Source: Phycisphaeraceae bacterium (GTDB lineage Bacteria > Planctomycetota > Phycisphaerae > Phycisphaerales > Phycisphaeraceae). Taken from it: 64,000 nt of DNA. Below, one piece after another: positions 53,108 to 55,985 of this stretch (within the stretch, counting starts at the first letter, position 1; each line of letters starts with the position of its first letter). Position numbers and translations under genes: made by a program. Below the pieces are notes generated by a model that saw only the letters and a program-made list of their open reading frames with translations, did no database searches and had not been told where the DNA came from. The stretch is from positions 1 through 64,000 of the forward strand of contig PAIY01000093.1 of the NCBI GenBank assembly GCA_002704825.1, given 5' to 3'.

Positions 53108-53358
53108 CGGAGTAAGGTAACACAGAACGGCAATCCGTAACAGGGGGCTCAGACATTTTCGTCGTGTATCCGATCCTGATTTTGACGCCTTTTTACTCCC
53201 AATGCGCTTGTTGTACCTTTTATTGGTGTTTTTTTACCCTGATGCACCCGTCATCATGACAAATCAACTGACATCCAGTTACCCCGTCAATTGCCTTGGC
53301 CAAATGCTCGCGTTTTCGATCCTTGACAACTTGCCCGGTCAAACTACATTCAATCCCC

Positions 53359-54411
53359 ATGCAAAATCTCCCACTCCAAAACGGTCCTATTCAATTTGCC
53401 GGTCACATCAGTCTCGAAAGATCGGATGACGGGATTCGTCCCTGGCGTCTACGATTTGATGACCTGCCGTTGTATCACCATGAGGGGCTGATCGGTCGTG
53501 CCTCATCACCATCCGGTGTTCGCATGAATCTCATCAGTGACACCAGCACGCTGACCGTCACCGCGACACACAAACCTTACACCGACGAACAAAACATGGA
53601 CGCGTGGTTCCGCATGGACCTCACCGTGGATGGCAAGTTCCACCAACGCGTCAAACTCCCCAACGAGATTGGCAAAGTTGGTGAATTCAAATTCATCGAC
53701 ATCCCCGAAGGCGAACACCGTCTGGAGATTTGGCTTGACCAGTTCCACCCGACACTGGTGCAGAACGTGGCCATCGATGATAACGCCGCCGCCAAACCGT
53801 TTAATGACACCCGCACCAAGTGGCTGACCTATGGCAGTTCCATCACCCATGGTCGTCAGGCACACGGCCCCTCGGAAGTCTGGCCCGCATTGGTTGCTGC
53901 ACAGTGTGACCTGAACGTCACCTCACTGGGCTTTGGCGGCCAATGTCACCTTGACCCCATGGTGCTCAACGATATCCGCGGCAGTTCAGCAGACATCATC
54001 AGTTGCTGCGTTGGCATCAACATCCAGGGCAGTTGCAGCTACAACGAACGCTCCTTCATCCCCAATGTCATCGGCATGATCAAGACCATCCGAGAAGGGC
54101 ACCCCGTTACGCCTCTGATGATCATCTCGCCCATCAGTTCCCCACCCCGCGAAGACATCCCCAATGGCGTGGGCATGTCACTGAGCGATTACCGCAACCA
54201 GGTCAAGCTCGCTGTCCAAACCGTGCAGAAGCACGACAACGACCAACACCTGTTCTACTTCGACGGCCTGGAACTCTTCGGCCCGGATATGGTCGACCAC
54301 ATGCCCGACCAACTCCACCCCGACGGAGATGGCATTCACCTGCTGGGCAATAGCGTCGCAGAGAAAATCATGCCGGTCTTACTCGGCGATCTGAAAAACC
54401 GCGACCAATAA
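53359..54411 (+). CDS. SGNH/GDSL-type esterase with N-terminal beta-sandwich
   Basis: A 350-residue two-domain protein: an N-terminal jelly-roll-like region (about 1-145) and an SGNH hydrolase domain. Block I is KWLTYGSSITHG with the Ser nucleophile near 158, block III is VGINIQGS where Gly-x-Asn is replaced by Asn-Ile-Gln, and block V is DQLHPDGDGIH with the Asp-His pair. The layout resembles CE2-type sugar esterases. No signal peptide. ATG at 53359 is assumed from the domain start; no clear ribosome site. Substrate unknown. Confidence 0.8.
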   Translation: MQNLPLQNGPIQFAGHISLERSDDGIRPWRLRFDDLPLYHHEGLIGRASSPSGVRMNLISDTSTLTVTATHKPYTDEQNMDAWFRMDLTVDGKFHQRVKLPNEIGKVGEFKFIDIPEGEHRLEIWLDQFHPTLVQNVAIDDNAAAKPFNDTRTKWLTYGSSITHGRQAHGPSEVWPALVAAQCDLNVTSLGFGGQCHLDPMVLNDIRGSSADIISCCVGINIQGSCSYNERSFIPNVIGMIKTIREGHPVTPLMIISPISSPPREDIPNGVGMSLSDYRNQVKLAVQTVQKHDNDQHLFYFDGLELFGPDMVDHMPDQLHPDGDGIHLLGNSVAEKIMPVLLGDLKNRDQ

Positions 54412-54455: not shown

Positions 54456-54568
54456 TGGCCGGGGTTGGATTCGAACCAACACTATGCCGCATTCGCGACA
54501 TTTGAGGTGTAAACCACCCCAAAACGAGTTTCAAACTCGCCGGTATTCCCAGTTATACCTACCCGGCC
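54456..54568 (-). tRNA. Unusual long tRNA, anticodon UGA (tRNA-Ser-like)
   Basis: A 113-nt cloverleaf on the minus strand. Acceptor GGCCGGG/CCCGGCC (7 bp), T8, D arm GGTA/TACC, anticodon stem GCGAG/CTCGT with loop TTTGAAA (anticodon TGA, reading UCA), T arm GTTGG-TTCGAAT-CCAAC. Between anticodon and T stems lie 43 nt that fold into two hairpins: 9 bp (54515-54501 side with loop GTTTA) and 6 bp with loop GAAT. Class II tRNAs normally have one arm of under 25 nt. Discriminator is A where bacterial tRNA-Ser usually has G; no CCA is encoded; position 14 is T rather than A. Decoding identity Ser is by anticodon only; it could be a divergent or non-functional copy. Confidence 0.8.
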
Positions 54569-54608
54569 GAATAGTTGATGCTAATCAGAAGCGTCGTAAA
54601 TGTCACGT

Positions 54609-55985
54609 TCACCCCAGATAAGCCTGATGTAAAATCTCCACCGGATGTTCGGTCGTCAAACTCACACCCAACCGTTTGGCTTCGGATGAAATCTGCATGG
54701 CGCAGCCCACGTTGCTCATGACCACGATCGAGGCACCGCTTTCCTGGATGTGACGGATTTTGCGTTCGGCTAAATCCATGGCCATCTCCGGCTGAGTCAG
54801 GTTATATGTCCCGGCAGCACCGCAGCAAAAATCGGCTTCCTCAAGGGGAACAATCTTCAAACCCATCACCCGTTTGAGCAAACGCAACGGTGGATCGCCA
54901 GCACGTTGAGCGTGAAGCAAGTGACAGGCATGGTGATACGTGATCGTCTTGGCAACGCGATTCGACGGTGTCGGCGGATCAAGCTCATCAATCAATTCGC
55001 AGACATCACGCACACGACTCACAAAATCCACAGCTTGATCGGCATACTGCGCATCATCACGAAGCAGGTGATCAAACTCACGCAAGCCTGCACCACAACC
55101 TGCAATGTTATTCACAATGAAGTCCGGCTTGTCTTTGACGTTCAGATACGCCTTGATGTTCTGACGGGCAAAGTCGCGGGCGCCTTTGTCTTCACCGGCA
55201 TGATGATGAATCGCACCACAGCAGGTTGCTTTACGCGGGACGATGATTTCACAGCCTAAGTGTTGGAGGACTTCAATGGTTTTGCGGTTCACGTCCTGAT
55301 ACATCACACTGCCGACACAGCCGGGGAACATGGCAACGCGGGCGCGCGGCTTGCCAGCCACGGTGTTGTCCGTTGGCGGGTAGTAGGCTTGCAGACCGCG
55401 TTCCCAAAGCGGCCCGTCATCCGGGAGCATCTGCTGCATCTTCTGGAATTGATTGGGCAGTGCCTTGGTCAAGCCGGACTTGAGAACGAGTTTGTACAGG
55501 CCGATTTTCTGCATGATCCGCACGGGTAAAAGCAACAGCTTCAAACGCAGCGGCTTGGTAAACCCATACAGGAAAATCGACTGCACCAGTTTGTCGGTGA
55601 ACTTGAATTTGCGCTTGGGTTTGAGTTTGGCGCGGGTGTCTTCAAGCAACTCGTGATACACCACGCCCGATGGGCAGATCGTTTCACAGGCCTGACAATC
55701 CAGACACAGATCAAGGTGTTTAAGCACATTGTCTGTCGGTTCAACGACACCGTCGGCCAAACCCTTCATCATGTAAATCCGGCCACGCGGTGAGTCGGAC
55801 TCCAGGCCGTTTTGCGTGTACGTCGGGCAGACGGGTAAACACAAACCACAGTGCACGCAGGACAGCGCGCGATCGTAAGCATGATCATCCAGATTCAGGA
55901 TATCCAGGCCAACGGGTTTGCTGGTTGCCTGATTTCCCAGGCCGGAGACGACTTTGCAGGATGTCGGATTGGAGGTCTGCGTCAT
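54609..55985 (-). CDS. glcF: Glycolate oxidase iron-sulfur subunit
   Basis: A 458-residue electron-transfer subunit. Two 4Fe-4S motifs near the N-terminus (CVHCGLCLPVCP and CLDCQACETICP) are followed by two CCG-type domains (KATCCGAIHHHAG near 255 and ADFCCGAAGTYN near 390). With GlcD and GlcE it oxidises glycolate to glyoxylate and passes electrons to the respiratory chain. Last gene of the glcDEF operon; its ATG overlaps the glcE stop by four bases. Confidence 0.95.
   Translation of the reverse strand: MTQTSNPTSCKVVSGLGNQATSKPVGLDILNLDDHAYDRALSCVHCGLCLPVCPTYTQNGLESDSPRGRIYMMKGLADGVVEPTDNVLKHLDLCLDCQACETICPSGVVYHELLEDTRAKLKPKRKFKFTDKLVQSIFLYGFTKPLRLKLLLLPVRIMQKIGLYKLVLKSGLTKALPNQFQKMQQMLPDDGPLWERGLQAYYPPTDNTVAGKPRARVAMFPGCVGSVMYQDVNRKTIEVLQHLGCEIIVPRKATCCGAIHHHAGEDKGARDFARQNIKAYLNVKDKPDFIVNNIAGCGAGLREFDHLLRDDAQYADQAVDFVSRVRDVCELIDELDPPTPSNRVAKTITYHHACHLLHAQRAGDPPLRLLKRVMGLKIVPLEEADFCCGAAGTYNLTQPEMAMDLAERKIRHIQESGASIVVMSNVGCAMQISSEAKRLGVSLTTEHPVEILHQAYLG

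Follow-up and report, generated by a model that had tools for sequence, protein, structure and literature searches.

The synthetases, EF-Tu, and the ribosome are believed to leave little room for variation in the architecture of a tRNA. Bacterial class II tRNAs (tRNA-Ser and tRNA-Leu) share a 7-bp acceptor stem, 5-bp anticodon and T stems, canonical contacts between the D and T loops, and a long, structured variable region. Both bacterial LeuRS and SerRS largely ignore the anticodon. LeuRS recognises A73 and A14 and attaches low importance to the extra arm, SerRS depends mainly on the variable arm, and G1-C72 and G2-C71 are conserved in most bacterial tRNA-Ser (PMC9976931).

The natural non-canonical tRNAs covered by one review mostly change the lengths of their arms (PMC7609411). 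Both allo-tRNAs and tRNA-Sec have a non-canonical cloverleaf with a long variable arm and a longer D-stem (PMC7609411, PMC7590224). Nematode nev-tRNAs are supernumerary class II tRNAs in which leucine signals in the body may disagree with the anticodon (PMC4300185), and engineered aptamer-tagged tRNAs are working tRNAs with a hairpin placed in their variable region, where it replaces the tip of the single arm (PMC7590224). These last two are functional precedents for the gene reported here. We found no description of a natural tRNA with two variable hairpins in the open-access literature or in the consulted sections of PMC7609411, an absence which is not proof.

The window (the whole 64,000-nt stretch of DNA that we analysed) contains a tRNA gene of exactly 113 nt on its minus strand, running from 54568 to 54456, with anticodon UGA. 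It is a genuine, conserved, lineage-restricted structural variant of tRNA. It differs from bacterial class II tRNAs in carrying two hairpins in a row (43 nt) where those have a single arm, in its 5-bp D-stem, and in mixing a serine anticodon with leucine-type A73 and A15-U48. It shares the non-canonical cloverleaf, the long variable region, and the longer D-stem with allo-tRNA and tRNA-Sec. Unlike them, it has normal 7/5 acceptor and T stems rather than an extended branch (8/5, 8/4 or 9/3), a D-stem that closes a normal 8-nt loop, and UGA rather than UCA as its anticodon, and SelA (TIGR00474) had no match in genomes G000–G003, of which G003 is a single contig. On the branch, the anticodon, and the lack of a SelA match, we rejected a selenocysteine tRNA. 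Compared with nev-tRNAs, the gene is bacterial, has a serine anticodon and two variable hairpins, and its leucylation is only predicted; compared with aptamer-tagged tRNAs, it is natural and has its second hairpin beside the first.

Gene structure and fold

The Rfam tRNA model (RF00005) matches the gene from end to end (positions 1–71 of 71) with 46.6 bits (E 8.5e-7), above the gathering score of 29, and in its alignment 40 nt are inserted between the anticodon arm and the T arm. ARAGORN did not report the gene at 54456–54568. When the whole RNA is folded freely, the acceptor, D, anticodon, first variable, second variable, and T helices all form together, with a minimum free energy of −55.1 kcal/mol (z −5.83 against dinucleotide shuffles). 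Pair probabilities are mostly 0.8–1.0, the exception being the outermost U-A pair of hairpin 1 (0.09). A preliminary description of this DNA had proposed a UGA tRNA with two tandem hairpins in its variable region and had suggested Infernal tRNA models as a check; the full-length RF00005 match and the thermodynamic fold bear the proposal out.

The acceptor stem has 7 bp, formed by GGCCGGG (54562–54568) and CCCGGCC (54457–54463), and the 3' strand is followed by discriminator A73 with no encoded CCA (54456–54463 together). The anticodon arm (54524–54540, GCGAG-UUUGAAA-CUCGU) has 5 bp, one of them G-U, and presents the anticodon at 54531–54533 in the loop UUUGAAA; the T arm (54464–54480, GUUGG-UUCGAAU-CCAAC) also has 5 bp. 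The preliminary description had called these three arms normal and had noted the discriminator A and the missing CCA, all of which agrees with the alignment, fold, and sequence. The missing CCA is ordinary in the source genome, because all 41 tRNA calls scanned in its loci lack an encoded CCA.

The D arm (54542–54559) is best read as a 5-bp stem, GGUAU/AUACC, with the 8-nt loop AACUGGGA, as in the predicted minimum free energy folds of both known copies (pair probabilities 0.86–0.87). With a stem of this length, the loop A-A-C-U-G-G-G-A fits the canonical pattern A14-R15-Y-Y-G18-G19-N-A21, so A14 is present. The T that had been assigned to position 14 came from counting a 4-bp D-stem and does not survive this fold. 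The D-arm anomaly is therefore best modelled as a stem one pair longer, not as a lost A14, and in this numbering the core residues U8, A14, A15, G18G19, A21, U33, the UUC of the T loop, and A58 are intact.

Hairpin 1 of the variable region (54501–54523, UUUGGGGUG-GUUUA-CACCUCAAA) has 9 bp and is followed with zero linker by the 6-bp hairpin 2 (54485–54500, UGUCGC-GAAU-GCGGCA). A 4-nt linker, UAGU (54481–54484), whose last U is position 48, then leads to the T stem. The thermodynamic fold recovers both hairpins as they had been drawn by eye across the 43 nt between anticodon and T stems. A 47-nt stretch with the variable region alone has a z of −4.7 in a shuffle comparison, and none of 2000 simple shuffles of the region folded as well. 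The molecule can be pictured as a class II-type tRNA with its variable arm doubled, the core of which would then be a six-helix junction.

Conservation, redundancy, and distribution

A second copy occurs in G003 (CP087563.1, Planctomycetes bacterium syqfu), a complete 7.4-Mb, single-contig genome of the same genus. It lies in the same place, after a glcF-like gene and before a convergent GDSL hydrolase. In the window, the former (a glycolate-oxidase FeS subunit-like gene with Pfam CCG and Fer4 domains, 54609–55985, minus strand) ends 40 nt before the tRNA, and the latter (a GDSL/SGNH hydrolase-like gene with Pfam SsfX3_N and Lipase_GDSL, 53296–54411, plus strand) lies downstream. The two copies are identical at 111 of 113 positions. 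By comparison, 60 of 213 four-fold sites of the adjacent gene (28%; Fisher p 9e-11) and 18 of 83 positions of the flanking spacers (22%; p 5e-6) differ. Judged from these substitution counts, the gene is therefore under purifying selection.

Both differences fall in hairpin 2: a U.G pair in the stem becomes a G.G mismatch in G003, and the loop GAAU becomes GAAA. Hairpin 1 is thus invariant between the two copies compared, and change is tolerated in hairpin 2. The ordinary tRNA-Ser genes compared (UGA, GCU, and CGA) are identical between the two genomes, so they are under slightly stronger constraint than the 113-nt tRNA.

Ordinary tRNA-Ser genes in G003 have anticodons UGA, GCU, CGA, and GGA and so cover all six serine codons. 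The 113-nt tRNA is therefore supernumerary and not needed for serine codons, and the earlier question of whether the genome has another UGA tRNA is answered by a normal tRNA-Ser(UGA). It is also dispensable, because G001 and G002, of the same genus, have glcF with no recognisable copy beside it; a covariance model run with filters off found no tRNA remnant at that place in either. In the proposed comparison with relatives, the copy in another species keeps both hairpins, and two other members of the genus have no recognisable copy.

We ran a covariance model of the two copies on overlapping samples of the order (400 genomes), phylum (392), and class (397). It found only the two 113-nt genes, at 141–142 bits; the next matches, 73–92 nt in length, reached at most about 50 bits, and the ones inspected proved to be ordinary tRNAs for Leu(UAA), Ser, and Cys. 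No comparable double-armed tRNA was found in these samples of about 400 genomes each, in a search whose sequence-led first step could miss unrelated ones. An exact 19-base pattern searched in GTDB genome contigs matched CP087563.1 and, by chance, one terminator. No similar DNA was found in phages, plasmids, or viral contigs, and on this ground we rejected a phage or plasmid tRNA.

Two side observations concern other tRNA genes. G003 holds two further low-scoring tRNA-like genes, L103:123-193 and L102:118-190 (31.7 and 43.2 bits), one of which ARAGORN does not recognise. In addition, the tRNA-Cys(GCA) genes seen in the order (L036, L097, L098) are 82–84 nt long and have a real variable arm, which makes them class II, whereas the tRNA-Cys of E. 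coli is short.

Charging and competing readings

Each of G000–G003 has one SerRS over the cut-off, and no second one was found there. G000, G001, and G003 each have one near-complete LeuRS; that of G002 is partial. A dedicated second synthetase was considered and set aside: there is one SerRS per genome and a single near-complete LeuRS where found, plus weaker LeuRS-model matches.

The identity signals of the 113-nt tRNA are mixed. Its anticodon is that of tRNA-Ser, but where the clade's Ser tRNAs have G73 and G15-C48 it has A73, A15, and U48, and it has two tandem hairpins rather than a single variable arm in serine orientation. It has the A73 and A14 with A15-U48 of tRNA-Leu (A14 if the D-stem is read as 5 bp) but not a leucine anticodon. 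Among the clade's tRNAs, A73, A15-U48, and the GGCC acceptor end are leucine-type, while G11-C24 and A9 are unlike both Ser and Leu. The best covariance-model matches elsewhere are mostly tRNA-Leu(UAA), yet core identity to any other tRNA is at most 42/61 (39–42 for each of Leu, Cys, Met, and Ser), so core identity gives no clear candidate for a parent tRNA. In sequence, the body thus looks more like tRNA-Leu and the anticodon like tRNA-Ser. Since LeuRS weighs A73 and A14 over the arm and SerRS mainly the arm, leucylation is about as plausible as serylation.

The preliminary description had left a choice between a divergent tRNA-Ser, a specialised tRNA, and a tRNA-derived RNA. We favour the second, because this is a conserved, real gene that is additional to a complete set of Ser tRNAs; the first was drawn from the anticodon only. 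With modest confidence, we read the gene as a selected supernumerary tRNA of one planctomycete sub-lineage, with a doubled variable arm, acting as an accessory aminoacylated UGA tRNA charged by LeuRS or SerRS. Serine codons would probably be read mainly by other tRNAs. Most likely this one would be charged by either the ordinary LeuRS or the ordinary SerRS, with about even odds, and the double arm may tune or restrict its use.

The gene may be an additional, serylated tRNA-Ser(UGA) isoacceptor whose variable arm has simply overgrown, though on balance we doubt it. SerRS reads the size and orientation of the arm, and a second hairpin should disturb both. The A73 and A15-U48 noted above depart from the clade's Ser tRNAs, the source genome's own Ser(UGA) has a D-stem of 3 bp and a mismatch rather than 5 bp, and a normal tRNA-Ser(UGA) is already present. 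In its favour, the anticodon UGA is accompanied by U33 and A37/A38, a long variable region is the main SerRS determinant, and G1-C72 and G2-C71 are as in most bacterial tRNA-Ser (PMC9976931).

The gene could instead encode a leucine-accepting tRNA that reads serine codons and places leucine at UCA/UCN, either at low frequency or in particular conditions, much as the nematode nev-tRNAs might, a reading which we doubt to the same degree. Mistranslation is costly, and the core identity to Leu lies mostly at common positions. The nev-tRNAs gave no detectable mistranslation (PMC4300185). The reading draws on A73, A14, A15-U48, and a GGCC acceptor end shared with the order's Leu(UAA) tRNAs, on the predominance of tRNA-Leu(UAA) among the best matches elsewhere, and on the low importance of the extra arm to LeuRS (PMC9976931). 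We infer that the molecule is possibly a Ser-to-Leu misreading tRNA.

A tRNA-derived RNA working outside translation (a regulatory RNA, a protein sponge, or an amino-acid donor to some other pathway), in which the hairpins would do the work, seems rather doubtful. It would suit a gene that is redundant for decoding, absent from close relatives at the same locus, and still in possession of its extra hairpins, and the position 40 nt after glcF could link the RNA to that operon. However, the anticodon loop, acceptor, and D/T loop contacts are invariant, all change is in hairpin 2, and no partner gene was identified.

A bolder version of the accessory-tRNA reading, which we consider unlikely, is that of a natural two-variable-arm tRNA, maintained by selection, which accepts leucine and decodes the UCN codons of serine (or uses its second arm to recruit a dedicated partner), the extra hairpin being a new identity or regulatory module. 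Any natural tRNA with two variable arms that is kept by selection would indicate how much extension the variable region can bear, would provide a natural scaffold for aptamer tagging, and would put serine and leucine identity to a direct test within a single molecule.

A tRNA pseudogene, or a mobile insertion into a tRNA, is already disfavoured and very improbable: the patchy distribution and the two-hairpin insert would fit, but the gene is under purifying selection, all of its arms pair, it has no phage, plasmid, or viral-contig relatives, and the hairpin 1 core occurs once each in G000 and G003, which speaks against a mobile insert in the variable loop. That core also has two exact 13-mer matches in G001. 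Scarcely credible is an insert that is excised from the precursor as an intron or processing element, for which the 43-nt length of the variable region might speak, since no group I or II intron family in Rfam matches the window, removal of either single hairpin would leave a normal class II arm so that no unique cut is predicted, and to our knowledge no bacterial splicing of this type is known for so short an insert.

Neighbourhood and expression

Immediately upstream is a putative sigma-70-like promoter, GTGACA-17-TAGCAT (54578–54606, minus strand), which matches the consensus at 9 of 12 positions and whose −10 element ends 9 nt before the tRNA. Both hexamers are identical in G003, and all differences lie between or outside them. 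Such a promoter-like element is by itself no evidence of function. Because this element ends 9 nt and glcF 40 nt upstream of the tRNA, own and operon transcription are both possible. The accessory tRNA that we favour would probably be transcribed from its own promoter or with glcDEF, and the transcript would probably be trimmed and receive its CCA as other tRNAs do.

Directly 5' of the tRNA, at 54569–54593, is a small inverted repeat, GAATAG...CTATTC in G003 and with one mismatch in the window, which overlaps the putative −10 element. In G001, about 1.6 kb of other DNA (L116:10250-11900) fills the site between glcF and the GDSL hydrolase that holds the tRNA in the other two genomes; its short reading frames are separated by imperfect GCCTAAC...GTTAGGC repeats with a putative likeness to integron attC sites.
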